NCBI GenBank assembly: GCA_001602415.1
Contig: CP012155.1
Location: 186,001-250,000 of the forward strand
DNA: 64,000 nucleotides
Direction: 5' to 3'
Source: Bacteroidetes bacterium UKL13-3
GTDB taxonomy: Bacteria > Bacteroidota > Bacteroidia > UKL13-3
Shown: positions 20,659-55,043 of the stretch, in pieces
How positions within the stretch are numbered: position 1 is the stretch's first letter
Layout: each line of letters starts with the position of its first letter
Notes under the pieces: generated by a model
Seen by the model: the letters and a program-made list of their open reading frames with translations, nothing else
Told to the model about the DNA's origin: nothing
The model's database searches: none
Translations under genes and position numbers: made by a program

Positions 20659-22002
20659 ATGAATGATTTACAAGTAAGGCTGGAAGCCATTATTGATAAT
20701 GCAATTGATGGTATCATAACCATTGATGAACGTGGAACAATTGAAACAATAAATCCGGCAGGAGTGAGTTTGTTTGGTTACCACAAATCAGAAGTTGTTG
20801 GCCGAAACATCAATATGCTTATGCCCGAACCCTACCACAGTCAGCATGATGGCTACATGCACAATTACAAGACAACAGGTGAGCGAAAAATTATTGGAAT
20901 AGGGAGGGAGGTTTCGGCCAAACGAAAGGACGGGAGTGTGTTTCCTTGTTTTTTAAGTGTGAGTGAAGTACTACTCGAAAACAAGAGAATTTTTACGGGT
21001 ATTATTCATGATATCACTCCGCTAAAAGCTGCCGAATTAGGCTTGCGCGACTATGCCTCAAAACTGGAAGAAACGAACAGTAGTTTGCAAACACTTTCTA
21101 AGGAACACGAAAAAAATTTACATCGTATTTCCGAACTAAACCAACAATTGGAACAACGCGTTGATTTGCGCACACGTGAATTAGCAGGTGCTGTCAGAGC
21201 TTTGGAACTTACCAACCAATCACTCGAAAACCAAATTATTGAAAATAAAGAAGTAGAAGAGGAATTGCGTAAACGTGAGCAATTGCTAATGGAAGCAAAT
21301 GCAAAAGCCAATGAATTGAACGAACTAAAATCGCGTTTTATCTCAATGGCTTCTCACGAGTTTCGCACACCATTGAGTACCGTTCTTTCGTCACTTTCGT
21401 TGTTAAGTAGGTATCATCAAATGGGTGATGAGGAGAAGTATACAAGGCATACACAAAAAATAAAGTCGGCTGTGGCTAATCTTACCGAGTTACTCGATTA
21501 TTTTTTGTCGGTTGAAAAACTTGAAGAAGGCAAGGTTCAGTTAGAGTCCGAGCATTTTGATTTTTTTCAGCAAATAAATGATCAAATAAATGATATGCGT
21601 GAGATTGTTAAAAGTGGTCAAACCATTTTTTTCGATACTGAATTAACGCAGCTGCCCGTTTACATGGATCATAAAATTGCCCGCACCATTGTTCAAAATT
21701 TGCTTTCAAATGCCATTAAATATTCAACCGAAGCTAAGCCAATTAGGATTACGCTGCGGGCAGATGAACAGATGGTTAAGCTGGTTGTGAAGGATGAAGG
21801 AATGGGCATTCCTCCAGATGAACAAGCAAAGTTATTTGAACGTTTTTACCGCGCCCGTAACGCAGGTAACATTCAAGGAACGGGATTAGGATTAAATATT
21901 ATAAAAAAATATATTGAGCTCATGGGTGGCTCTATTACATTTGAAAGCAAACTTGATAAAGGAACTACTTTTTACGTATCAATACCAATTAACCAAATAT
22001 GA
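20659..22002 (+). CDS. FixL-like PAS sensor histidine kinase, probable haem oxygen sensor
   Basis: The 447-residue soluble kinase has no membrane segment. The PAS domain (about 5-120) carries LMPEPYHSQHDGYM and RKIIGIGREVSAKRKDG, very close to FixL. His63 and Arg83 match the haem-binding His200 and O2-contacting Arg220 of Bradyrhizobium FixL, with the same 20-residue spacing. A coiled coil follows (about 125-220), then HisKA with phospho-acceptor His233 (SMASHEFRTPLS), and HATPase motifs NLLSNAIKYS and GTGLGLNII. It overlaps the next gene by ATGA, implying translational coupling. Haem binding is inferred; the kinase call is firm. Confidence 0.88.
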   Translation: MNDLQVRLEAIIDNAIDGIITIDERGTIETINPAGVSLFGYHKSEVVGRNINMLMPEPYHSQHDGYMHNYKTTGERKIIGIGREVSAKRKDGSVFPCFLSVSEVLLENKRIFTGIIHDITPLKAAELGLRDYASKLEETNSSLQTLSKEHEKNLHRISELNQQLEQRVDLRTRELAGAVRALELTNQSLENQIIENKEVEEELRKREQLLMEANAKANELNELKSRFISMASHEFRTPLSTVLSSLSLLSRYHQMGDEEKYTRHTQKIKSAVANLTELLDYFLSVEKLEEGKVQLESEHFDFFQQINDQINDMREIVKSGQTIFFDTELTQLPVYMDHKIARTIVQNLLSNAIKYSTEAKPIRITLRADEQMVKLVVKDEGMGIPPDEQAKLFERFYRARNAGNIQGTGLGLNIIKKYIELMGGSITFESKLDKGTTFYVSIPINQI

Positions 22003-23057
22003 CAATAATACTAATCATAGAAGACAATAAAGACGTACGTGAAAATACAGCCGAAATTTTGGAGTTGGCAAATTACAAAGTGCTTACTGCAATTAATGGG
22101 AAAGAGGGTGTTGAAAAGGCCCAACAACACAAACCCGATTTGATTATTTGTGATATTATGATGCCGGAATTGGATGGTTACGGAGTGCTACATGTGCTCA
22201 GTAAACATAGTGCCACGGCTACTATTCCATTTATTTTTTTAACTGCAAAAACGGAGAAACAAGATGTACGTAGAGGAATGGGAATGGGTGCGGATGATTA
22301 TATAACCAAGCCCTTTGATGAAGCCGATTTACTAAACGCAATTGAAGCACGTCTTAAAAAAAGCAGTTTGATAAAGCAAGAATTTCAGCGAACAGCTGCA
22401 GGGGTTGAAGATTTTATTGAGCAGGCAAAAACATTAAGCGACCTAAAAGATATTTCTAAAAGTAGAACACTTCATCATTACAAAAAGAAGGAACTTATAT
22501 TCGCAGAAGGCAACCACCCTCGCGGTATTTTTTTACTTCAAAAAGGGAAAGTAAAAACCTTTAAATCAAATGAAGATGGTAAAGATTACATTATTGGATT
22601 ATACAATGAAGGCGATTTTTTTGGGTATGTCTCTTTGTTAGAAAATACCGTTTATACCGAAAATGCTGAAGCTTTAGAGAATAGTGAGGTGTATTTTATT
22701 CCTCGCGAAGATTTTTTTACATTGGTGAGCAATAACCACGAAGTTGCCAACAGCTTCATTAAAATGCTGTCTAACAATTTGGTTGAGATGGAAGAGCGAA
22801 TGCTCAAGCTGGCCTACAATTCGGTGCGCAAACGTGTTGCCGATAGTTTGCTAAAACTTGAAAAAACATATAATACAACCGGGCAACAACCGTTTACCAT
22901 TAGCATCAATCGTGAGGATATGGCAAATATGGCAGGTACTTCAACCGAAACCGTTATACGTACCTTATCTGATTTTAAGGACGAAAAGCTGATCGAAGTA
23001 AAAGCAAGTCATGTAACATTGCTCAACTTGGAGAAGCTTCAAAAAATGCGAAATTAA
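21999..23057 (+). CDS. Response regulator fused to a CRP/FNR-type transcription factor
   Basis: The 352-residue protein combines a receiver domain (residues 1-125; acidic pocket E8-D9, phospho-acceptor Asp52 in ICDIMMPELDG, and the conserved Lys in TKPFDEADL) with a cyclic-nucleotide-binding-like beta-roll (about 150-265) and a CRP-type helix-turn-helix (MAGTSTETVIRTLSDFKDEKLI). FNR-type N-terminal iron-sulfur cysteines are absent, so redox or oxygen input most likely arrives by phosphorylation from the upstream kinase. Its ATG lies inside the kinase stop region (4-base overlap). It probably binds a TGA-N6-TCA-type palindrome such as that at 23077. Confidence 0.9.
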   Translation: MTIILIIEDNKDVRENTAEILELANYKVLTAINGKEGVEKAQQHKPDLIICDIMMPELDGYGVLHVLSKHSATATIPFIFLTAKTEKQDVRRGMGMGADDYITKPFDEADLLNAIEARLKKSSLIKQEFQRTAAGVEDFIEQAKTLSDLKDISKSRTLHHYKKKELIFAEGNHPRGIFLLQKGKVKTFKSNEDGKDYIIGLYNEGDFFGYVSLLENTVYTENAEALENSEVYFIPREDFFTLVSNNHEVANSFIKMLSNNLVEMEERMLKLAYNSVRKRVADSLLKLEKTYNTTGQQPFTISINREDMANMAGTSTETVIRTLSDFKDEKLIEVKASHVTLLNLEKLQKMRN

Positions 23058-23076
23058 CCACCATCATGCTGGCTGT

Positions 23077-23120
23077 ATGACGGGTATCATGTTTTGATAA
23101 AATACCACTATTTAATTTTG
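23077..23120 (+). promoter_or_regulatory. FNR/CRP-like box plus promoter of the stress-protein gene
   Basis: ATGACGGGTATCAT at 23077-23090 is an inverted repeat (ATGA-N6-TCAT) resembling the FNR site TTGAT-N4-ATCAA. TTTG at 23093-23096 and TAATTTTG at 23113-23120 form a TAnnTTTG-type promoter with a 16-base spacer. The box centre lies about 40-42 bases before the likely start point, the class II activator position. It sits between the regulator gene and the stress-protein gene. Confidence 0.5.
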
Positions 23121-23149
23121 GACCGACTAACCTCTCTAAAATTAGATAC

Positions 23150-23986
23150 ATGTTAAGGGTATTACTGCCAACTGATTTTTCAAAAGCATCTCTCAATGCC
23201 ATTGTTTATGCCTTCAAATTATTTGAAGGTAAACAGGTGTGGTTTGATGTGTTGCATATAATACCGGAGCATGAAGGAGAAGGCACGGAAAATATAACCG
23301 AACAAATCCACGAAGCAAAATTACATTTTGAGGCGATGAAACATAAAGTGGTTACTTGCCATAAATTATCACTCCCCTCACAATTGCACCTTCACATTAT
23401 CTCTGATGTTTCAGTAAGCGCAAAAATTGGCAAGTATGCTTTAGCGCAACAAATGGATATGGTAGTTATGGGATCTACCGGTATTGGTAATCATGAAGAT
23501 CACTTGTTTGGTAGTGTTACACTCTCGGTTATTGCCGAACTGGAAAAGCCGGTCTTGTCTATTCCTAAACAATCTCAATATAAAAAATTGCAGAAAATCG
23601 TTTACGCTACAGATTTAAATGACATTGATTTTGAAGCCAAAGAATTGATGGCCTTTGCCAAATTATTTAATGTAGCAGTTCATTTTGTTCATGTATTCCC
23701 GGAAGTAATAAGTGCTACTCGATTTAATCCTGCGCATATTAGCCACGATTTAACTCGCAAGTATAATTACCCGCATATTACGTTTGATGCCATAATGAAC
23801 AACGATGTGGAGAATGGTTTGCTACAATTTATTGAAACCCACCAACCTGACATCGTGGCCATGTTTACCCGCAAACGTAATACTTACGAGCAATTGGTTG
23901 ACAAAAGCATAACCCGCAAAGTTGCATTGGGTTCGGCTGCTCCCATATTTGCTTTTCGCAAAAACGAGGAGTTGATAGATGCTTAG
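23150..23986 (+). CDS. Universal stress protein, tandem UspA domains
   Basis: The 278-residue cytosolic protein holds two Usp domains. The first begins RVLLPTDFSKASLNAIVYAF and ends with a GSTGIGN...GSVT nucleotide-binding-like loop. The second begins KIVYATDLNDIDFEAKELMAFA and lacks a full nucleotide loop (VAMFTRKRNTYEQLVDKSITRKV). Tandem UspA proteins are common targets of FNR-type regulators in low oxygen. It is the third gene of the sensor-regulator cluster, with its own promoter region. A role in the hypoxic or stationary response is inferred from context. Confidence 0.88.
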   Translation: MLRVLLPTDFSKASLNAIVYAFKLFEGKQVWFDVLHIIPEHEGEGTENITEQIHEAKLHFEAMKHKVVTCHKLSLPSQLHLHIISDVSVSAKIGKYALAQQMDMVVMGSTGIGNHEDHLFGSVTLSVIAELEKPVLSIPKQSQYKKLQKIVYATDLNDIDFEAKELMAFAKLFNVAVHFVHVFPEVISATRFNPAHISHDLTRKYNYPHITFDAIMNNDVENGLLQFIETHQPDIVAMFTRKRNTYEQLVDKSITRKVALGSAAPIFAFRKNEELIDA

Positions 23987-31357: not shown

Positions 31358-33112
31358 TTACATTATATTTAATTTGATATTCAACTCCTTTAATTGCTTA
31401 TCATCAATAGTGCTTGGAGCATCAATCATTACATCGCGTCCGCTGTTATTTTTAGGGAAAGCGATAAAATCACGTATTGAATCGGCACCGCCAAACAGTG
31501 AGCACAAGCGGTCGAAACCAAAGGCAATACCTGCATGTGGAGGCGCTCCAAATTCAAAGGCATTCATCAAAAAGCCAAATTGGTGCTGCGCCTCTTCGCT
31601 GGTAAATCCTAATACTTCAAACATGCGTGCTTGCATGGTTTTATCGTATATACGAACACTTCCACCACCCACTTCCACTCCATTAATTACCATATCATAG
31701 GCGTTGGCTCTTACATTTGCTAAGGTTGCAAAATCATTCAACAAATGAATATCCTCTGGTTTAGGGGCAGTAAACGGATGGTGCATGGCAAAGTAGCGGT
31801 TTTCGTCTTCGTTAAATTCCAACAAGGGAAAATCAACCACCCATAAACAAGAGAAGGTGTTTTTATCACGCAAACCTAATCGCGTTCCCATTTCCAAGCG
31901 CAACTCATTTAAAGCTTTGCGTGTTTTATCGGCTTGTCCGGCTAATAGTAAAATTAAATCTCCGGGTTGCGCTTTAAATGCTTCGGCCCATTGTTTCAAT
32001 GCCGCTTCATCATAAAATTTATCTACCGATGATTTGATGGTTCCATCTGCATTTAAGCGTGCATAAACCAATCCGGTAGCACCTACCTGTGGGCGTTTCA
32101 CGAAATCGGTTAATTCATCCAATTGCTTGCGGGTATATTCTGCACAACCTTTTGCACAAATTCCTACAACCAATTCTGCATTGTCGAATACTGGGAAATT
32201 TTTGCCTTTTACAATTTCATTCAGTTCCACAAACCGCATATCAAATCGTGTATCGGGTTTGTCGCAACCATAATATTTCATGGCATCGGCATAGGTCATG
32301 CGCGGCAAGCTATCAATATCAATTCCTTTTACTTGTTTAAAGAGGTGTTTTACCAATCCTTCAAACATGTTTAATATATCTTCCTGCTCTACAAAGCTCA
32401 TTTCACAATCAATCTGTGTGAACTCAGGTTGGCGGTCAGCTCGCAAATCCTCATCTCTAAAACATTTTACAATTTGGTAGTAGCGGTCAAATCCACTAAC
32501 CATCAACAATTGTTTAAAGGTTTGTGGCGATTGAGGGAGGGCATAAAATTCGCCTGGATTCATTCTGCTTGGAACCACAAAATCACGAGCTCCTTCTGGA
32601 GTTGATTTAATCAAAACAGGTGTTTCTACTTCAATAAAAGATTGGTTGTCGAGAAAGGTACGGGTTTGTTGGGAAACCTTGTGACGTAGTTCCAAGTTAG
32701 CTCTCACATTGGCTCTGCGCAAATCGAGGTAACGGTATTTCATGCGAATATCATCTCCTCCATCCGTGTTTTCTTCAATGGTAAACGGTGGGGTGATTGC
32801 TTGATTTAATATGTTGAGTGTTGTAACTTCAATCTCAATTTCTCCGGTTGGAATATTGGAATTTTTACTGCTACGTTCAATTACTTTACCAGTAACTTGT
32901 AGTACAAACTCGCGACCACATTTTCGGGCTTGCTCGCACAAAGTTCCGTTGGTTTCCATATTAAAAGCCAATTGCGTAATGCCATATCTATCGCGCAAAT
33001 CAATAAAAGTCATTCCTCCCAAATCACGACTTTTTTGCACCCATCCACTTAGGGTTACTGTTTTATGAGCATCTGTTAATCTTAATTCTCCGCAGGTATG
33101 TGTTCGTAGCAT
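31358..33112 (-). CDS. aspS: Aspartate--tRNA ligase
   Basis: The 584-residue class II synthetase has an N-terminal OB-fold anticodon domain ([24 protein letters not shown]). Motif 2 is [18 protein letters not shown]. The bacterial GAD insertion lies in the middle and motif 3 is GIAFGFDRL. The start [11 protein letters not shown] is the standard bacterial one. It charges tRNA-Asp and is transcribed alone, ending at the terminator at 31310-31336. Confidence 0.96.
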
Positions 33113-33420
33113 GGTTGTATTGGTTATTCAAAATATAAGAGGCGAAAATAAGCAAAGCCGTTCTTATAGAATAGATTTACCTTAAATCATTTTGATAAAT
33201 GAATCTGTTTTAAATATATTTAGTTGATTTTTATCAAGGTACTGTCGCTATAGTGTTGAAATTAAAGGGTTAATTGAAATTTAATGGCTTTGTGGTTAAA
33301 CAACTACAAATTTGACAATTGTAATTATTTACAATTGTACTGTTTTAACAGTTTAATACGAACTTTAATGAAACGTACAACTACTTAGTGGTGTTTGTAG
33401 TTGTTCTTTTCATAGCATAC
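33113..33420. other. Intergenic region with several hairpins, possible small RNA
   Basis: Between divergent aspS and tadA lie a perfect 10-base hairpin (ACAATTGTAA/TTACAATTGT, 33315-33338) and an 8-base pair ACAACTAC/GTAGTTGT (33377-33404), followed by the terminator-like stem at 33421. No protein-coding frame is seen. A short plus-strand transcript is possible. The aspS promoter must also lie here. Confidence 0.35.
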
Positions 33421-33454: not shown

Positions 33455-33488
33455 ACTTTTAGTGGCAATAGTGTATGTTGCGCAAAGT

Positions 33489-33929
33489 ATGGCAGAACTC
33501 TTTTCGCACGAGTATTTTATGAATATGGCTTTGAAAGAAGCTCAAAAGGCCTATGAATTAGGTGAAATTCCGGTGGGCGCTGTTGTGGTAAGCAACAATA
33601 CCATTATTGGTAAAGGGCACAATTTAACCGAACAATTAAATGATGTAACAGCTCATGCCGAAATGCAGGCTATTACTGCTGCAGCCAATCATTTAGGGGC
33701 GAAATACCTTATTGATTGTACGTTGTATGTTACCCTTGAGCCTTGTATTATGTGCGGAGGTGCTTTGTTTTGGAGTCAAATAAGCAGGGTTGTGTATGGT
33801 GCATCTGATGAAAAACGAGGCTATACCAAAGCGGGCAATACACTGCATCCTAAAACTGATATTATTTCGGGAATATTGGCCGATGAGTGTTCTGCAATGA
33901 TGAAAGAATTTTTTAAAAAACTGCGCTGA
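33489..33929 (+). CDS. tadA: tRNA adenosine(34) deaminase
   Basis: The 146-residue zinc deaminase makes inosine at the wobble position of tRNA-Arg. The catalytic HAE motif (HAEMQAI) and the zinc-binding PCIMC are in standard order and spacing. I chose the ATG at 33489 (MAELFSHEYFMNMALKEA); an upstream ATG at 33462 would add nine non-conserved residues. A terminator-like stem ends 34 bases before the start, so the tadA promoter is either inside or downstream of it. Confidence 0.93.
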   Translation: MAELFSHEYFMNMALKEAQKAYELGEIPVGAVVVSNNTIIGKGHNLTEQLNDVTAHAEMQAITAAANHLGAKYLIDCTLYVTLEPCIMCGGALFWSQISRVVYGASDEKRGYTKAGNTLHPKTDIISGILADECSAMMKEFFKKLR

Positions 33930-44316: not shown

Positions 44317-45321
44317 CTAATTACTCATAGCCATGTGCAACTTTCTTGGTTCATACTTCGCTGCCATGTCGGCAATAGCTTTAATATGATCAGGTGTGGT
44401 TCCGCAGCATCCCCCGAGTATGTTCACCAATCCTTCTTTGCAAAACTCTTCCACTTGTTTCATCATCGCATTCGGACTTTGGTCATACTGTCCCATTTCG
44501 TTTGGTAAGCCAGCATTAGGGTATGCACTTACAAAGAAATTTGATTTTGAAGCCAATACTTGTAAGTAGGGGCGAAGAGCCTCGGCACCCAATGCACAAT
44601 TTAAACCAATACTAAGTAATGGAATATGCTCCATTGAGATCAGAAATGCCTCTGTTGTTTGTCCTGATAAAGTTCTACCCGATGCATCAGTAATCGTTCC
44701 CGAAATCATGATGGGATATTTTTTACCCATTTCATCAAACAATTCCTGAGCCGCATACAAAGCAGCTTTTGCATTTAAGGTATCAATAATGGTTTCGAAC
44801 AAGAGTATATCTACACCACCCTCAATGAGAGCTTTGCATTGTTGTTTGAATGCAACCACTAATTCATCAAAAGTAATACCTCTAAAACCTGGATCATTTA
44901 CATCAGGCGAAATGGAAGCTGTTTTATTTGTTGGTCCCATAGAGCCAGCTACAAAACGTGGCTTGTCGGGATTTTTAGCCGTATACTCATCGGCAACTTC
45001 ACGTGCAATTTTTGCCGATTGAAAATTGATTTCATACACCCAATCTTCCAACCCGTAATCGGCTTGTGCAATGGTGGTTCCACTAAAGGTATTTGTTTCT
45101 ATAATATCTGCACCCGCATCAAAATATTGAGCATGTATGGCTTTAATGATTTCAGGGCGTGTGATAGATAATAAATCGTTGTTTCCTTTTAAGGGTTTAG
45201 GATGGTTTTTAAGCTGCTCATTTCTGAAATCGTTTTCATCCAACTGGTAGCGTTGTATCATAGTGCCCATTGCACCATCTAATATTAAAATGCGTTTGTG
45301 AAGTTGATCTGTTATTAACAT
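44317..45321 (-). CDS. metH: Homocysteine S-methyltransferase domain of methionine synthase (split MetH)
   Basis: The 334-residue protein covers only the N-terminal module of Met[16 protein letters not shown] at the start and zinc-binding cysteines in GLNCALGA and [12 protein letters not shown]. It transfers a methyl group to homocysteine. The folate-, cobalamin- and activation domains are missing. Split MetH genes are known in Bacteroidota with the second part adjacent; here no such part follows. It may be encoded elsewhere, or this is a stand-alone methyltransferase using another donor. Confidence 0.85.
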
Positions 45322-45860
45322 GCTTTAACTTTTATAAATAAAATTCAAATTTAGGTAAATTACGCATTGGGCGGACTGCCAATTTTAGCTCGTTGCTAAT
45401 TTTGTTCTTTTTTTGGTACAATGCAATATGCTAAATTTCCAAAATTGCAATCAAATATTGTTTTAGTGCCTTATACATTTGTTATAACTTGAGGCATAAA
45501 GGATATTGCAAGAGTATGGAGTTCTGCGTATTGTTTTTAATAACTATAGTGTTTTTGAAAAAAAGGTCATTTTTTTAGCAAAAATTTGTTTTTAAGAAAA
45601 AATTAATAATTTAGTAAATTCAAAAATGTATAAAAATCAAATGATACATGTCACTTGGCAAACACATTTTGATGTAGTTAGATACGAAATTTAATAGTAA
45701 TTAAACACCATATGATGAAAAGAACTAAATACTTAATTGACGGTTGTCATCTCCCGGAAAACACAGCATATAGGTATAGGCATGATGTTGATTAGGTAGC
45801 ATGAGAAGCTATCTTAAGAGTCTTTTTTAACACAAAAACAAAACTAAAAACTAAATATAT
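45322..45860. other. Intergenic region upstream of the giant surface-protein gene
   Basis: These 539 AT-rich bases separate metH and the divergent giant gene and must contain both promoters. A TAATTTTG (45397-45404, plus strand) fits the -7 consensus, but no well-spaced upstream TTG was found. A 27-codon open frame at 45712-45795 (MMKRTKYLIDG) is present, but nothing supports its translation. Confidence 0.4.
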
Positions 45861-48800
45861 ATGAATCGAACATTTACAACGCTTGGCAAATTGCCGAACA
45901 CATTCACAAGGGCATTAACGCTACTACTCGTGAGCGCAATCATGTCACTATCGTCCCTTTATGGACAAACATACCTTTCGCAAGATTTTGAATCGGCATG
46001 GGTTGGTAATAACCCTTCTGCACCCGGAGCGGGTTCCATTCCTGCCGGGCAAAATTGGACACAAAACAGAACCCAGCTTGTAAATAACGGAACACCAAGG
46101 GCACTAACTGATGGTAGCGGTGGGGTAGACGTTGACTGGGTCACGTCAACTTGGGATGCCAACCTAAATAGGTGGTCGTCATTTTCATATACAGCTGGCA
46201 ATTTTGGGCCTGCAGGTGCTCCAATTGGTGCTGCTTCTGGGAATAGCGCTATGATGATTGATGATGGGAATTGGGGAGGTTTACAGTCATCTCGGAGAGT
46301 TGAATCTCCAATCATTAATTTAACTACGAGTACTTCACCATACTTGCGTTTTGCTTTTCATTATCCTGTAACCAACACAAACACCAATTTTAGAGCGGTA
46401 ATTTCAACAGATGGAGGAACTACATGGAGAACACTAAGCCAAATTATTTCAGGTGGAGAGTTTCTTGGTGCGATGATAAGCGCAAGCCCATGGCAACGTA
46501 TCGCCATCCCCATTCATTCATCATTAAGAACTGCTAATGTAAAAATAGGCTTAGAAGCAGTAGGTACTTATGGACTTGGAACTCCATGTCTTTGGATTGA
46601 TGCCTTAACTGTTCAGGAGTTCACTCCTGTTACCATCACTTCTGCTGGTTCGGGTTATTGGAGTAGTCCATCAACCTGGGTTGGAGGTGTTGCACCAACA
46701 TGTGAAAACAATGTGGTGATTGCTGCAGGACATAGAGTAACCTATGATTACAATATGACACGCGCACAAAATATTACGGTTGCAGGTACATTAACTGGTA
46801 ATAATGCTATTAGTACAGCAATGCAAATTTTTGGTGATTTAACTGTAAACTCCGGAGGGTTGTATAATTCTTTTTGCGCTAACGGACTAGCTGCAGTTAG
46901 AACGTATTTAGGTGGTAATTTAGTAAACAATGGTACGGTAGATTTGTCAAGATCCGCAGGATTGTTGGCTTGGTTTGGTAGTAAACCTTCGGCATATAGT
47001 GGAACAGGGACTTTGGCCAACGGATTTATTGCCAATGTATCGCACGCAAATTCGGGTGGCGTTACCTACAATGCTCCAGTAGAAGTAAGGAATACCTGTG
47101 GATTGTATACCGGAACAGTAAACCCTAATGGTAATTTAACGTTGGGTAATGTAAATTTTGTAACCGCTCAAATCATTGAACGTAGTCAAGGCTCGTTTAC
47201 AGCCGCACCCATTTATGGAGCAAATGTGGTTAGATCTGTTACCTACACAACCACAAATTTTGAGGTTTTGCCGGCTAATGGATTAACCCTCACAACAGGA
47301 TTTGAAATCCCAACAGTTTCGGGAGCTCGTTTATTAAATGGTACCTTAAGTATGAACACCTATTATAATGTACAGTTAGGCTTTCCAATGACAGTAGGAA
47401 CAGGTGATATTAACAATACGGGTGGATTAACACTCTCAAGAGGGATTTTGATTTCGAGTCAAGCCAATATGCTTACCATCAATTTGCCTCCAGGTACCGG
47501 TATATCAACAGGTTCCGCACCTAGTACTGCCTCACCATCAACAACAGCAGGTTCTTATGTAACGGCTCCTTTTAGGGTTCAAATGCCCTTTAGCGGAACT
47601 ACTGCTAGAGCATTCCCGCTTGGTGTGGGAACTCAAACCAATGATTTAACGGGTATACCAACTAAGAATGTATTACTTAATTTTTCAATCTCTCCAGGAA
47701 CAACTCCTTGGCAAGGTCAATTGGTAACAGTAAATGTATACGGTTCGCCTTCAGGAAAGGGTAACGCTCCGATTAATGCCGTAATGGGTAAACGTACTTT
47801 TGGACTTACCTATAATGGTGGTCCAACGCTACCAACCACAGCAACACTTACGTTAAATGCTGTATTGGATGACGGTTTATTTAACAACGCAGGAGATTTA
47901 TTAATTGCACAAGGAAGCTCCCTCAATGGACCATGGACATCACGCATGGTAAATGGAACAGGAACGGGTATTATAACGGGTACATCGAGTAGAACAACAA
48001 CGATAGCCTTAAGTACTGATTCGTTGTTTTGCTGGGCAACTTCAGGTCCTACTGGTAAATTATGGGTAGGTGGAGCAACCGGTAACTGGGGTGTGGCTGG
48101 CAATTGGATCCCAAGTGGCGTGCCAACAGCAACAGATAATGTTAGAATAAACAGCGCATCCGTAACTTTAGCAGGTGGCACACCTCCGTATGCTTGTAAT
48201 AATTTGTATATAGATGTACCTTCAACTTTGACTGCAAGTGCCAATACATTAAATGTAAATGGTTTGGCTTTTGTAAATGGAAATTTAACCGTTTCGGGCG
48301 GTACTGTTAATGTTAATGGCGTGCCAAGTAATATTACTACGAGTTTAGTTATTGCACAAACAGGGCAACTAAATATAAGCTCAGGAACGGTAAATGTAGC
48401 CGCTACTAGCGGTGATAACAATCGTTTTATGAGTGGTGCTGGTACCTTAAACCTAACAGGAACGGGAATACTCAATGTAAATGGCGGTTTAGCGCTTAAT
48501 GCAGGTGTATTTAACATGAACGGTACTTCTCAATTAAATATGAATCCACAAGGAACAGGGTTAAACTTGGTTTCGAACTCGGTGTTAAATATTGGCATAA
48601 GTGTATTTGTAAATGCAACTGGCGGAACCATCACAATGGTGAACCCGAGTGCGAATAATCCCTCAGGAACCAATGATGTGTTTATCGGTGGTATTATTGA
48701 TTACAATAATAAAAATTTCACGGGTTCAACCCTTCGTTTTGGCAATGGAACAGCAAACGCATCTGCCACAATCAGTGCAGGTGGCTTTCAAGCAAGTTTT

Positions 48801-51800
48801 GGGTCATTCCCAACTATGCGAATGGGTAATTTGGTTATCAATAACCCTTCAGGCATAACACGCGAGGTAAGACTTACTACATCAGCAGTGTTCAATAATG
48901 TTACCATTACAGCCGGAGCATTAAACTTAAATGGATTTACGTTGAATGTGAATGGAAACATCGTGAATGATGGAACAATCAATACAAACACATCAGCAGC
49001 ATCCACCATTCATTTTACCGGTAGTGTTGCGCAAACGTTGAGTGGAAAGGGAAATTATACAGGCAACGTTATCAGAAATTTAATTGTAACTAATTTTGGA
49101 GGAGGTGTGAATTTAAACCAAAATGTTACGGTTACCAATCAGCTTACCTTAAATGGAGGTAACCTTACAGGAACAGGAACATTAACATTGGGTAATAGCG
49201 CCATTTCCAACACTTTAGCTATCAACAGAAATGGTGGAACCTTGGGTTTAACCCCAGTATGGAATATTGCTAATCCCAATCTTGTAAGTGTAAATTTGGC
49301 TTATAACACTCCATCTCTTTCGCCAATTAGCTACGAATATCCATTGATTCCATCTGTGGCTTACGTGGCAGGTAATGAATTACCAGTAACAGATACATTG
49401 AATACGTTAACGATTAATGCTCAATTTGGGGTAACGTTTAACAGATCAGTATGGTCAAGGGCGGCAAGTCCATTAACTTTAACAAATGGTATTGCAACCT
49501 TTAGTGGAGTAAATGCATTTAATGCTACTTTAATAACAGCTACCCTTCCAGCACCAGCAGTTACGGCTGCATCATGGGTAAATGGAACAGTGAGTGTTAA
49601 TATTAATACGGCAACCAATATTAGCCGCTCGTTTCCTGTTGGAGGCTCAACAGCCGGTTCTGCGCGTACGTTCACTATCAACAATATGCAAAATGGAGGA
49701 GCGGGAATCACAACAATTTCAGTAACTCCGGTTACAGGTGTGGGTAATACACCGGGAGCAGGATTAACTGCAGTTTCAACAACTCGTGCATTTAATGCTC
49801 AGGTTTCAGGCTTTGCCTTAACAGCAGTTGGTACTGTTGCTATTAATTATGGATTAGATGATAATCTTACAACCAACACTGCTCTTGTTTTGGCGGAGAG
49901 TAGAATTGCATACAGTGCAACTGCACCTCCAACATCTTTCTCATCTTTAAGAGCGGCAGCAAATACGGTTGCAGGTTCTGTAACTTCAGATGCTCCAGTT
50001 ACTACCACGTTAGGATTTTTCAATTTGGGATTATCAACTGGAACAACAACTGTGGTGTATACCGGACCGAATAATGGTAGCTGGAATACTCCTACTAACT
50101 GGGATGGTGGAGCCCTTCCAACTGCTTCTAATGATGTAAGAATAGATGGTAACCTTACCGTTAATATTCCTTCCGGATCAACAGCTAATGCAAGAAGTTT
50201 AATTGTTAATAGGGGTTCAACGCTAAACGACAGTGCCAGTACATTTACGGTAGATAGTAACCTAATTGTTAATGGTACCTTAAATATTCGTGCCGGCAAT
50301 ATGTTGGTTGGTGGTGTATTTAGTGCCACCCCTAATCATATTGATATGGGTGCATTTGCTACCATTAACCTCTCTGGTGGAATGTTAACATTGGGTAATG
50401 TTGGTGGTTGGGCCAACAGGAAGATGCGTGTTGTTAACAACTTTAATATGACCGGTGGTAATTTTAATTTGTATGGTCAGATAACATTTGCCGCCAACGC
50501 TAATCCTACAGTAGTTAATCCTCCATTATGGACTAACTTTACTATGACCTCAGGTAACTTTAATATTTATCAGCAAGGTACTATTAACCTGGGAGCTGTA
50601 ACAGCTTTTAATGCCAGTGTTAATGCAAATTTATATTTGAACGGAGGGACAATTACAATTGTAGATCCAAATGTGAATGCCACAACTGATATTAACATTG
50701 CAAACAATGGAACAAGGGTTATCACTGGAACTACACTGGCATTTGGCGATGGCGTTTCTAGCTTAGCTGGTAATGCCACTAACCTAGGATTTTCAATAAA
50801 TATTGCTGTTCCATTTGGTAATGTAGTAGTAAACAACCCTGCTGGAACCAATCGTATTGTAAGGTTAGCTGCAGCAGCAACCTTTAATAATTTAACAGTT
50901 ACAGCAGGTACATTTAATAGCAATGCATTAGGTGTGACTTTACTTGGTAATATTGTGAACAATGGAACGCTTAATTTTGATAACACCTCAATCGTAAGTT
51001 TTATCGGAACATCACCGCAAACGGTAAGTGGAACAGGTTCGTTAACCAATAACAGGATTGCTACCTTAACAATATCCAACAGTTCAGATGCAACACCAGG
51101 AGTTGAATTCAATGTGAATGCTACTGTAACCAATGCGTTAAATTTAAGATTAGGCCGCTTGGGCGGTACAGGAACGCTTACTCTTGGTAATTCGGTTGCT
51201 TCAACGGCTTTCACTTTAACAAGAACAACAGGTTCTTTGATTGTTGCACCAACTTTTAACTTTACAGGAGTAACAACAACATATGCATACAATGCACCAA
51301 CCCCGGCAGCATTGGTTATTACTACAGGACTTGAACTACCAGCAGCTGTGAATACGTTAACTTTTAGCAATGCAGGTATCGCATTAGGTTCAACAGCATT
51401 TATTGTGGGAAGTCCAGTTACGGTAAACACCACGCTAAATTTATCTGGTGGAATTGTGCAAACTACTGCAACCAACCTAATCACTTTAGCTACTACTGTT
51501 ACCACACCACCAGCAGGTGGAATCAATGCATTTATCAATGGACCATTGGCTATTCAGCTCAATACGGGTACGAATACATCAAGAACATTTGCATTGGGTA
51601 AAGGAACTCAATACAGACCGTTAACTATTGATGCTTTCCACTCGAATACAACATTGCAAACCTACACTGCAGAAGTTATTACAGGGTCTACTACGGGATC
51701 TCCTTTAGCACCTTTGAACGCATTAACGAGTGCTCGTTACTGGAAGGTACTCAATACTTCATCTATCTTCAGTACCACTACACCAACAATCGCAATTACA

Positions 51801-54800
51801 ACCGGTGCAGATGATAATATAGGAATGCCATACTTAGCTAGGGTATCTCAAGGAAACTTTGGTAGTTCGTTTGCCTCAAGAGGCGGATCTGCAACTGGAT
51901 TTGTAGTAACTTCCGCTCTAGCGTTTACTGGTGATAGTATCTTTACTATTGGTACCGAAGACGCATCCTTGCCAATTATTTGGACGGGTGGTGCAGGTAC
52001 GAGCAATTGGGGCGATGCCCTAAATTGGAGCAATAACGCAGTGCCTACTTCTTCTAATATTGTGAATGTAGCAGCAACAATTGCTCCGGTTGGAGCATTC
52101 CCAACCACTATTAATGTGAATGTACCAACAGCTAACGTTGGAACGTTGATTGTTGGTCCAAATATTGTTTTGGACATGAGAAATTCAACCTTTAATGTTT
52201 CAAATAAATATACGCAGATTACTGGTGCAGGAACTGTTTTTGCCAATGGCGCTACCATCAATATGCTAGGAGGCGACTCTTTCTTGGTTGCTGGTGGTAT
52301 ATTCAATGGTGGAAACAGTACATTGAACTTTAGTTCTAGTTCACTTCAATACATCAGACCAACTGCAGGAACATTCACCTTCTTCAACATGAATTTAACC
52401 AATGGAGATAAGAATTTCTTTGCAGGTTCTATCTATACTATTGGCGGAAATCTTACAACAGATGCTACAAGTACCATAAGCTTATCAGCAGCTACGAACA
52501 CAACATTTAACGTTGGTGCTAGCTTTACCAATAATGCAACAGGTGCAGGAACAAATGTTGCAAATGTGATCGTAAATATGAATGGATTACAATCTGTGAT
52601 TAACTCACCGAATGCACTTTCAACACCATCTATCACAGTTGCAAATGGCTTCTTAACTTCATTAGCATCTCCAATTACCTTTAATACAGGTAGAACGTTT
52701 ACCGTAAATGGAAGATTAAATGCGGGTAATAACTTGGTTAATGGTACTGGTACATTTCTTTTAGAAAATACAGGGACACTAGGAACAACTCAAGCTACTG
52801 GTGGTTTAGCCGCAACCATAGATCCAGGTTTAACAAGAACCTACACCTTAGGATGCCAAATAGATTACAATGCAAATGGTGCACAAGTGATTGATGCACT
52901 TTCGCATAATACCAATTGTGGTATTCGTGTTTCTAATGTTGGAACCAAAACCTTGAATGGTAATTTAACGATAGCTACAACTGGAGGCGATATTCAAAGA
53001 GGAGCCATTTATGCTCAAAATCCTGCAGTTTTTGCCGATGGCGGTTTTGTAACAACCATAACTGGTTTAACTTCCCCATCAGTGAATGTTGAAAAAGGTG
53101 CTGGATACCTATCTAGCGCTGGAGGAGGATTAACATTTGGTCCAACAGCATCAACTGGTTCTATTATTCGTGTTCCAGACGAAACCAATATAGGTAACTT
53201 AGAGTTAAATATGACTACTGTTTCAAACACAGTAAACTTGCAATCTTCTGAGCCTTTATTGGTTTCAAACATTACCGTAAATAACTTAAATGTTGGTGTT
53301 ACAACACCTGCAAATGGTGGAGAATTAAATGTTAGCAATGGAGGTACTATTACCCCGCTATTGATTACAGGTAACTACACAATTGGCAATACTGGCGCCA
53401 CAGCAACAGGAACAATTAATGGAACGGCAAACATTTATACCAATATTACTTTAAATGGTAACTTTAGCAGTGCCAATACCAATGCTACACAAACCATTAT
53501 TGGTAATACTGGATTTAATACCTTAATTATGAATGGAACACCTGGTCAAAGCTTTGTATTCTCAGGTGCAGCTGCTGTGAGTTATTTAGCAGCTCCGGGA
53601 GCTCAAGGAACAACAGGTTCGTCAATTATTAGAATCAACAATCCGGCAAACGTAACTTTTGGAGATGGTGTCATTCGTACCTACACTAACCTTGGCGTTA
53701 TTGAATTAACGGGTAATGGTACAGTTGCTCCTACCGGCTCAACTACATTTGCTTATAGCAATGTTTCAGGTACTCTTAGGTATGCTAATTCAGCACCTAT
53801 TACCACTACTGATGCTGAATATCCTGCAACCAATTCACCATTCAATTTACAGATTTTTGCTACTGGAGCAGGAAGTGTAACACTACATGCTCCTCGAGTT
53901 GTGAATGGAACATTGTTCTTACAATCTGGATTGGTAAACACAACTTCAACCAACAGGTTGTCTCTTGGTTCATCAAATTCAATAGCTGGAACATTGGCTA
54001 GAACTGCTGGTTGGGTTAACGGTCCTTTAACAAGATGGGTTTCAAATGCAATTGGTTTAAGAGATTGGACAGTTGGAACAGCTACATTGTTTAGACCAGC
54101 TTCTATTACCTTTAATACTGCTCCTTCTGTAGGAGGATATGTTACAGCTACCTATGTGGATGGGGTGAATAGCACTCCTTTGGTTCCAACATTAACAGAT
54201 GTAATTACACTTGATACCAGAAGTAATGCTTACTGGCAAATAGATACATTACCTGCTGGTATTGGTGCATCAAATTATAATATTTCATTGAATACAAGTT
54301 TATTTAATGGAATAACTGATCCTGCTTCGGTAAGATTGATTCGCTCGGATGATGCTGGATCTACATTTAATGTAACAGGAACTCATTTTGATGGCGCAAT
54401 CGGATATTACAACCGAAATGTCGTAACGAATGGTTTTGGCAGATATTACCTTGGTGCGAATGCAACCACTAATCCTTTACCTGTTAATTTAGTAAGTCTT
54501 ACCGCCACTGTGAATGAAGAAGATGTAGTTGTGTCGTGGAGAACTGCTTCGGAAACAGATAACAAAGGATTTGAAGTAGAGCGCTCAGCTGATGGTCGCA
54601 CGTTCGAATTTGCTGGATTTGTAGAAGGAGTTGGTAACAGCAATATTGCTACAGATTATGCATTAACTGACGAGCAAGCGTTTGCTAAAACAAATAGTGC
54701 AGTATTGTACTATCGCTTAAAACAAATTGATTTTGATGGTACCGTTAATTACTCAAAAGTGATTAAAGTATCGAAAGAAAGTGATAATGTAAATGCATTA

Positions 54801-55043
54801 TCAGCATATCCGAATCCATTTGCTTCAAACTATCAGGTATCGTTTAATGCAAAGCAAGCAGGAGCGGTAACCATTGAAATGGTAGACATTCAAGGTAAGT
54901 TGGTATTATTACAAACAGCATCAATAAGCAAAGGAGTTAATACTGTAACCATTAACAATGTTTCGAATCTTCAAGTGGGTGTTTACTTTGTAAAAGCAAC
55001 AGTAGATGGCGAAACACAAGTAATGAAGTTGGTGAAGAACTAA
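45861..55043 (+). CDS. Giant T9SS-exported repeat surface protein (3060 residues)
   Basis: A signal peptide (ends SLYG before Gln) is followed by a MAM/cleaved-adhesin-like domain (about 37-255). Four large units follow, each opening with a Trp-rich module (YWSSPSTWVGGVAP near residue 260, NWGVAGNWIPSGVPT near 732, WNTPTNWDGGALPT near 1398, NWGDALNWSNNAVPT near 2038). They continue as long Asn/Thr/Gly-rich beta-solenoid sequence. Units 2 and 3 are clearly homologous. A fibronectin-like domain (about 2875-2975) and a T9SS type A sorting signal (YPNPFASNYQV ... VYFVKATVDG) end the protein. It is probably an adhesin or structural surface filament. No catalytic domain is recognised. Confidence 0.85.
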   Translation: MNRTFTTLGKLPNTFTRALTLLLVSAIMSLSSLYGQTYLSQDFESAWVGNNPSAPGAGSIPAGQNWTQNRTQLVNNGTPRALTDGSGGVDVDWVTSTWDANLNRWSSFSYTAGNFGPAGAPIGAASGNSAMMIDDGNWGGLQSSRRVESPIINLTTSTSPYLRFAFHYPVTNTNTNFRAVISTDGGTTWRTLSQIISGGEFLGAMISASPWQRIAIPIHSSLRTANVKIGLEAVGTYGLGTPCLWIDALTVQEFTPVTITSAGSGYWSSPSTWVGGVAPTCENNVVIAAGHRVTYDYNMTRAQNITVAGTLTGNNAISTAMQIFGDLTVNSGGLYNSFCANGLAAVRTYLGGNLVNNGTVDLSRSAGLLAWFGSKPSAYSGTGTLANGFIANVSHANSGGVTYNAPVEVRNTCGLYTGTVNPNGNLTLGNVNFVTAQIIERSQGSFTAAPIYGANVVRSVTYTTTNFEVLPANGLTLTTGFEIPTVSGARLLNGTLSMNTYYNVQLGFPMTVGTGDINNTGGLTLSRGILISSQANMLTINLPPGTGISTGSAPSTASPSTTAGSYVTAPFRVQMPFSGTTARAFPLGVGTQTNDLTGIPTKNVLLNFSISPGTTPWQGQLVTVNVYGSPSGKGNAPINAVMGKRTFGLTYNGGPTLPTTATLTLNAVLDDGLFNNAGDLLIAQGSSLNGPWTSRMVNGTGTGIITGTSSRTTTIALSTDSLFCWATSGPTGKLWVGGATGNWGVAGNWIPSGVPTATDNVRINSASVTLAGGTPPYACNNLYIDVPSTLTASANTLNVNGLAFVNGNLTVSGGTVNVNGVPSNITTSLVIAQTGQLNISSGTVNVAATSGDNNRFMSGAGTLNLTGTGILNVNGGLALNAGVFNMNGTSQLNMNPQGTGLNLVSNSVLNIGISVFVNATGGTITMVNPSANNPSGTNDVFIGGIIDYNNKNFTGSTLRFGNGTANASATISAGGFQASFGSFPTMRMGNLVINNPSGITREVRLTTSAVFNNVTITAGALNLNGFTLNVNGNIVNDGTINTNTSAASTIHFTGSVAQTLSGKGNYTGNVIRNLIVTNFGGGVNLNQNVTVTNQLTLNGGNLTGTGTLTLGNSAISNTLAINRNGGTLGLTPVWNIANPNLVSVNLAYNTPSLSPISYEYPLIPSVAYVAGNELPVTDTLNTLTINAQFGVTFNRSVWSRAASPLTLTNGIATFSGVNAFNATLITATLPAPAVTAASWVNGTVSVNINTATNISRSFPVGGSTAGSARTFTINNMQNGGAGITTISVTPVTGVGNTPGAGLTAVSTTRAFNAQVSGFALTAVGTVAINYGLDDNLTTNTALVLAESRIAYSATAPPTSFSSLRAAANTVAGSVTSDAPVTTTLGFFNLGLSTGTTTVVYTGPNNGSWNTPTNWDGGALPTASNDVRIDGNLTVNIPSGSTANARSLIVNRGSTLNDSASTFTVDSNLIVNGTLNIRAGNMLVGGVFSATPNHIDMGAFATINLSGGMLTLGNVGGWANRKMRVVNNFNMTGGNFNLYGQITFAANANPTVVNPPLWTNFTMTSGNFNIYQQGTINLGAVTAFNASVNANLYLNGGTITIVDPNVNATTDINIANNGTRVITGTTLAFGDGVSSLAGNATNLGFSINIAVPFGNVVVNNPAGTNRIVRLAAAATFNNLTVTAGTFNSNALGVTLLGNIVNNGTLNFDNTSIVSFIGTSPQTVSGTGSLTNNRIATLTISNSSDATPGVEFNVNATVTNALNLRLGRLGGTGTLTLGNSVASTAFTLTRTTGSLIVAPTFNFTGVTTTYAYNAPTPAALVITTGLELPAAVNTLTFSNAGIALGSTAFIVGSPVTVNTTLNLSGGIVQTTATNLITLATTVTTPPAGGINAFINGPLAIQLNTGTNTSRTFALGKGTQYRPLTIDAFHSNTTLQTYTAEVITGSTTGSPLAPLNALTSARYWKVLNTSSIFSTTTPTIAITTGADDNIGMPYLARVSQGNFGSSFASRGGSATGFVVTSALAFTGDSIFTIGTEDASLPIIWTGGAGTSNWGDALNWSNNAVPTSSNIVNVAATIAPVGAFPTTINVNVPTANVGTLIVGPNIVLDMRNSTFNVSNKYTQITGAGTVFANGATINMLGGDSFLVAGGIFNGGNSTLNFSSSSLQYIRPTAGTFTFFNMNLTNGDKNFFAGSIYTIGGNLTTDATSTISLSAATNTTFNVGASFTNNATGAGTNVANVIVNMNGLQSVINSPNALSTPSITVANGFLTSLASPITFNTGRTFTVNGRLNAGNNLVNGTGTFLLENTGTLGTTQATGGLAATIDPGLTRTYTLGCQIDYNANGAQVIDALSHNTNCGIRVSNVGTKTLNGNLTIATTGGDIQRGAIYAQNPAVFADGGFVTTITGLTSPSVNVEKGAGYLSSAGGGLTFGPTASTGSIIRVPDETNIGNLELNMTTVSNTVNLQSSEPLLVSNITVNNLNVGVTTPANGGELNVSNGGTITPLLITGNYTIGNTGATATGTINGTANIYTNITLNGNFSSANTNATQTIIGNTGFNTLIMNGTPGQSFVFSGAAAVSYLAAPGAQGTTGSSIIRINNPANVTFGDGVIRTYTNLGVIELTGNGTVAPTGSTTFAYSNVSGTLRYANSAPITTTDAEYPATNSPFNLQIFATGAGSVTLHAPRVVNGTLFLQSGLVNTTSTNRLSLGSSNSIAGTLARTAGWVNGPLTRWVSNAIGLRDWTVGTATLFRPASITFNTAPSVGGYVTATYVDGVNSTPLVPTLTDVITLDTRSNAYWQIDTLPAGIGASNYNISLNTSLFNGITDPASVRLIRSDDAGSTFNVTGTHFDGAIGYYNRNVVTNGFGRYYLGANATTNPLPVNLVSLTATVNEEDVVVSWRTASETDNKGFEVERSADGRTFEFAGFVEGVGNSNIATDYALTDEQAFAKTNSAVLYYRLKQIDFDGTVNYSKVIKVSKESDNVNALSAYPNPFASNYQVSFNAKQAGAVTIEMVDIQGKLVLLQTASISKGVNTVTINNVSNLQVGVYFVKATVDGETQVMKLVKN

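Follow-up and report, generated by a model that had tools for sequence, protein, structure and literature searches.

The FixL–FixJ–FixK cascade of Sinorhizobium and Bradyrhizobium works via a separate fixK gene (PMC9104804). In Bradyrhizobium diazoefficiens, FixK2 uses a box similar to the one described below and controls the cbb3 operon, and its targets include Hsp20, universal stress protein (Usp), and DnaJ (PMC9104804). In Myxococcus xanthus, the NmpRSTU system includes a haem-dependent kinase, and it controls cbb3, hemN, and other genes connected with the use of oxygen (PMC11841059). According to a 2026 review, signalling in the FNR/CRP family is by definition one-component and involves no response-regulator domains (PMC12937710). 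Here we analyse a three-gene locus of Bacteroidetes bacterium UKL13-3 (GenBank GCA_001602415.1, contig CP012155.1), which encodes a predicted haem-PAS kinase, a fusion of a receiver to a CRP/FNR module (REC-CRP), and a Usp. The window is the whole 64-kb stretch containing the locus (positions 186,001 to 250,000 of the contig), and window coordinates count from its first letter.

The locus probably encodes a two-component low-oxygen switch with a receiver-controlled FNR/FixK-type output and with Usp and cbb3 oxidase genes as targets; we put the probability of this reading at roughly 0.7. In the proposed circuit, His63 would anchor haem in the PAS domain, and O2 bound to this haem and held in place by Arg83 would inhibit the kinase. 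When O2 is low, the kinase would autophosphorylate on His233 and pass the phosphate to Asp52 of REC-CRP. The phosphorylated receiver would then let the FNR-type module bind a TGAY-N4-RTCA box and so induce the genes for Usp and cbb3 oxidase. In parallel, the same box is likely read by a stand-alone FNR paralogue that probably depends on an iron–sulfur (Fe-S) cluster. The initial annotation had proposed an oxygen circuit here. Judged from sequence, this is by far the best reading of the locus, consistent with the FixL-type PAS, the cbb3, hemN, Usp, and hsp20 neighbours, and the presence of the box upstream of usp, fixI, and ccoN.

The three open reading frames of the locus are confirmed in the window. 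The first (20659..22002, + strand) encodes a predicted soluble haem-PAS sensor histidine kinase of 447 residues with Pfam matches to PAS, HisKA, and HATPase_c. The PAS domain (residues 7–121) leads into a long coiled helix (120–255) carrying the phospho-acceptor His233, and HATPase_c spans residues 338–445. The kinase has no transmembrane-like segment (maximum 19-residue hydropathy 1.0) and is therefore probably cytoplasmic. The best PDB relative of the PAS domain is S. meliloti FixL (1d06; E 1.3e-31), followed by B. japonicum FixL (E 3.3e-28) and then the haem sensor DosP (E about 6e-16). The alignment with the two FixL proteins is gapless over 114–116 residues and places His63 (codon 20845..20847, +) on FixL His200, the haem iron ligand in the F-alpha helix, and Arg83 (codon 20905..20907, +) on FixL Arg220, the distal O2-binding arginine at the start of a strand. 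The FixL-like contexts and FixL spacing of these two residues, noticed in the initial annotation, are thus borne out by the alignment. Both residues are invariant across 21 FixL-type kinases from REC-CRP loci. In the AlphaFold2 model, His63 lies inside helix 59–73 and Arg83 opens a beta strand, as in FixL. The per-domain confidence of the models is good but their pTM is low (0.51 and 0.48), so that they were read domain by domain.

A published classification of PAS domains groups FixL with DosP in one cluster, identifies the F-alpha His as the residue on which haem binding chiefly depends, and suggests that cluster members with this His bind haem (PMC10468136). The window kinase has full-length PAS homology to FixL, the proximal F-alpha His, and the distal Arg on the next strand, the features of a FixL-type haem-PAS kinase. 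By analogy, we infer that its PAS domain binds haem via His63 and that its kinase activity is inhibited by O2. Against the NCBIfam equivalog NF041777 (FixL, Rhizobiales), the kinase scores 170 bits, below the curated cut-off of 850, and it is therefore FixL-like rather than an orthologue of rhizobial FixL.

The second gene (21999..23057, +) overlaps the kinase gene by ATGA (21999–22002), and encodes a 352-residue response regulator with Pfam matches to Response_reg (4–116), cNMP_binding (159–246), and HTH_Crp_2 (278–350). The receiver is complete, with the acidic pocket E8/D9, D52, T82, and K104 expected of a response regulator, the last three conserved among homologues; Asp52 (codon 22152..22154, +), the predicted phosphorylation site, is invariant in 14 homologues. 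The remainder combines cNMP_binding with HTH_Crp, as in the CRP/FNR superfamily, and is related to 2gau and A. fischeri FNR. The sole Cys of the protein is C51, within the receiver. The ATGA overlap and the joining of a receiver with a CRP/FNR module that lacks FNR cysteines had both been read from the sequence before, and both hold.

Three other identities for REC-CRP were rejected. FixJ has a LuxR-type output domain, and REC-CRP is not a FixJ, its output being cNMP_binding plus HTH_Crp_2 and not of LuxR/GerE type. Direct Fe-S sensing as in FNR is ruled out by the absence of the four cluster-ligand cysteines. Control by a cyclic nucleotide is unlikely, because the phosphate-binding residues of CRP are not kept in GYVSLLENTVYTENAEA, as judged from a homologue alignment. 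A search of the open-access literature, with most subscription journals outside its coverage, found no paper on a receiver–FNR fusion; a response-regulator census may list the architecture.

To place the locus in context, about 5 kb on each side was taken for 140 REC-CRP genes, and 151 REC-CRP loci were analysed in total. In 142 of the 151, a kinase gene on the same strand lies directly upstream of REC-CRP, with a median gap of 2 nt; the two genes overlap in 66 loci, by 4 nt in 38. Because the pair recurs so often and so closely, the kinase and REC-CRP form a stable two-gene unit beyond chance. The third gene of the window locus (23150..23986, +) encodes, in agreement with the initial annotation, a tandem Usp of 278 residues (Pfam Usp); it is a predicted target of REC-CRP. 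The survey of gene order proposed in that annotation finds kinase, REC-CRP, and Usp in this order in 19 of the 151 loci.

Usp is also the most frequent of the families counted within about 5 kb of REC-CRP (71 of the 151 loci), followed by the FixI copper ATPase (28), HemN (22), a DsbD_2/SafE-type membrane protein (17), FixH (15), FixG (14), CcoN (12), Hsp20 (11), and RIC/ScdA (7). At least one of nine oxygen or stress families is present at 108/151 REC-CRP loci vs 0/40 random regions from the same genomes (p 3e-18; the loci are mutually related, so that this and the p-values below overstate their independence). Neither nitrite or nitric oxide (NO) reductases nor nitrogen-fixation genes recur around REC-CRP. 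A coincidental gene order is rejected on the strength of this survey and its control of random regions. The neighbour families are the classes that FixK2 controls in B. diazoefficiens. In the window's own genome, a HemN query finds no homologue at E ≤ 1e-40, and hemN is therefore an unlikely target there.

One might still suppose an ordinary two-component system whose PAS domain has lost its haem, the FixL motifs reflecting ancestry and the gene order a local coincidence. PAS domains like that of FixL are abundant, and the His is missing from 40% of their cluster (PMC10468136), but His63 and Arg83 are both present and are invariant in the FixL-type group, and the pairing (142/151) and context (108/151 vs 0/40) make a coincidental order very unlikely. 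We regard this explanation as highly improbable.

A family of about 130 residues (MVITINDTTRIQHIKEEFNLLFPYLKIEFFSKP...), with no Pfam or NCBIfam match, is encoded near 43 of the 151 REC-CRP genes, mostly just after REC-CRP (for example at L182, L184, L188, and L189) and also at L218. It is a candidate new low-oxygen protein. Elsewhere in the UKL13-3 genome, an intergenic match to the strict form of the box defined below (G000:1757816, L385) precedes a gene for 143 residues resembling a 131-residue family near other REC-CRP genes.

A search for spaced palindromes upstream of the linked genes gives TGAT-N4-ATCA as the top match, which we generalised to TGAY-N4-RTCA. By its sequence, this box corresponds to an FNR/FixK half-site that lacks the invariant outer T. 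It precedes 44/65 usp, 64/111 kinase, 15/24 fixI, 6/7 ccoN, 7/9 hsp20, and 19/23 130-residue-family genes, usually with its centre 60–90 bp upstream of the start codon. It occurs in 1 of 189 control promoters taken from the random regions (p from 1e-9 to 1e-33 against usp, kinase, fixI, and ccoN), and shuffled usp and kinase promoters give a count of about 1. Boxes of the TGA-N6-TCA class, as in an FNR/FixK-type regulon, thus stand before the putative targets as predicted sites. The best box of the window, TGACGGGTATCA (23078..23089, no strand assigned), lies between REC-CRP and usp with its centre 66 bp before the usp start, and is the predicted operator. The corresponding position at L009, L172, and L173 also holds a box, though with another spacer; at L172 and L173, the TGA of the box doubles as the stop codon of the regulator gene. 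The strict form ATGAYN4RTCAT has 16 matches in the genome, three of which precede this usp, fixI, and ccoN.

Besides the relatedness of the loci, several observations weigh against the proposed switch. The strict box shows no genome-wide excess (16 matches vs 14 in a reversed control), and it is informative solely by its placement before usp, fixI, and ccoN, not by its count. The promoter of the window kinase itself has no box. Boxes are found in 29% of promoter regions at loci with a FixL-type kinase vs 42% at the others. The same box precedes fixI in genomes without REC-CRP, and the box alone is therefore no proof that REC-CRP binds here. Finally, 118 of the 142 partner kinases have a PAS domain outside the strict FixL type, and the signal of the REC-CRP family may accordingly not always be O2.

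Four further boxes were noted. Two TGAY-N4-RTCA boxes (window 45642–45653 and 45738–45749) share one intergenic region, flanked by a homocysteine S-methyltransferase gene (44317–45321, −) and an open reading frame of 3060 residues (45861–55043, +) with a weak G8-domain match. The box TGATTTTTATCA (window 33225–33236) lies between an aspartyl-tRNA-synthetase-like gene (31358–33112, −) and a deaminase gene (33462–33929, +), and may be there by chance. Outside the window, an intergenic strict box (G000:2728275, L391) lies between a gene for 358 residues, which may encode a fatty-acid desaturase, and a gene judged by eye to be formate-tetrahydrofolate ligase-like.

The same genome encodes a stand-alone CRP/FNR protein (G000:2497622-2498248, L002) that is 41% identical to the CRP part of REC-CRP. 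Where REC-CRP has its receiver, the N-terminus of the paralogue has four Cys (CxxC-x10-C-x13-C), with a spacing unlike that of E. coli FNR. The recognition helices are nearly identical (GTATETIIRLLS in the paralogue, GTSTETVIRTLS in REC-CRP). It is conceivable that the paralogue is the protein that uses TGAY-N4-RTCA and that REC-CRP acts elsewhere or modulates it, for example as a heterodimer. The shared helix and the four Cys would suit such an arrangement, as would the same-family genomes without REC-CRP, in which the paralogue adjoins fixI and a box precedes fixI or the preceding gene. We consider it unlikely, given that among nine REC-CRP loci from same-family genomes with no paralogue detected at E ≤ 1e-30, eight still carry boxes (22 of 49 regions), including sites before the kinase, usp, and 130-residue-family genes, and that, in the window as in three relatives, the interval separating REC-CRP from usp contains a box. 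The two paralogues probably read one box, with a receiver input to REC-CRP and a probable Fe-S input to the stand-alone protein. The initial annotation had suggested that FixJ and FixK are collapsed into one protein. The domain anatomy and the predicted regulon fit this suggestion, but the FNR/FixK function is shared, not wholly collapsed, because the four-Cys paralogue has almost the same recognition helix.

The sensors attached to REC-CRP vary more than the output. A strict FixL-type PAS (HDxY ... IIGxGRE or close) is present in 24 loci, including that of the window. Most of the other upstream kinases have a related PAS that retains the His, with Met, Leu, Ile, or Arg at the Arg position. 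Loci with a FixL-type PAS do not form one clade on the REC-CRP tree; nine changes are required, and sensors have therefore been exchanged, gained, or lost repeatedly while the output protein was kept. At four loci (L174, L175, L185, and L192), a FixL-type PAS kinase is followed by a single-domain receiver and a second kinase before REC-CRP, an arrangement that suggests branching or a relay in the circuit.

Haem PAS domains are able to bind NO and carbon monoxide (CO). Instead of O2, the kinase PAS might sense NO, CO, some other ligand, or the redox state, and the REC-CRP regulon might answer respiratory or energy stress and merely overlap the low-oxygen genes. The lack of an Arg220 equivalent in most partner PAS domains and the RIC (ScdA) Fe-S repair genes, often linked to NO stress, at seven loci point in this direction. 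His and Arg are nevertheless both kept in the window and in the FixL-type group, cbb3 and hemN dominate the linked respiratory genes, and nitrite and NO reductases do not recur, so that a signal other than O2 appears improbable at this locus.

The three-gene locus is present in UKL13-3 as the initial annotation described, but REC-CRP is not peculiar to one Bacteroidota genome. Full-length REC-CRP homologues (E ≤ 1e-75) occur in 166 genomes of a 345-genome sample of the same class and in 55 of 395 genomes of a phylum sample, every listed match coming from the same class. Carriers include Chitinophaga, Jiulongibacter, Mucilaginibacter, Arcticibacter, Sphingobacterium, Aquimarina, and Salinimicrobium, and plasmids of Runella, Hymenobacter, and Spirosoma carry the gene annotated merely as ‘response regulator’ or ‘transcriptional regulator’. 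Tentatively, and with more doubt than for the locus itself, receiver–FNR fusions may be a general two-component low-oxygen arm in Bacteroidota. They would be FNR paralogues in which a receiver replaces the Fe-S sensor, driven by haem-PAS kinases of the FixL type and of the related F-alpha-His type, and they would have their box in common with Fe-S FNR, giving two oxygen sensors per promoter. The open-access literature searched says little about how Bacteroidota control their response to oxygen, and the locus offers a concrete proposed circuit, with a sensor kinase, an unusual receiver–FNR regulator, a predicted operator, and likely targets, conserved across roughly half of the class genomes sampled. 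If the circuit is correct, FNR regulation would exist in two-component and one-component forms, and the convergence of a haem kinase and an Fe-S FNR on one box would be a natural case of two oxygen sensors meeting.

The locus resembles the FixL–FixJ–FixK cascade in its FixL-type, predicted haem-binding PAS with His and Arg, its two-component output, and its FNR/FixK-like box. It differs in that its receiver and its FNR/FixK-type module form a single protein, whereas FixJ acts through a separate fixK, in that no nitrogen-fixation gene recurs beside REC-CRP, and in that the box (NTGAY-N4-RTCAN) lacks the fixed outer T of the FixK-type TTGA/C-N6-T/GCAA. As with FixK2 of B. diazoefficiens (PMC9104804), the predicted targets are cbb3 oxidase, Usp, and Hsp20. 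With one-component [4Fe-4S] FNR it shares the CRP/FNR fold, a related half-site, and the target classes, but REC-CRP lacks the cluster Cys and its predicted input is receiver phosphorylation. As in NmpRSTU of M. xanthus, a haem-type kinase (predicted here) heads a two-component system for oxygen-use genes, whereas NmpRSTU has a globin-type sensor, an NtrC-type regulator, and a multi-component relay.

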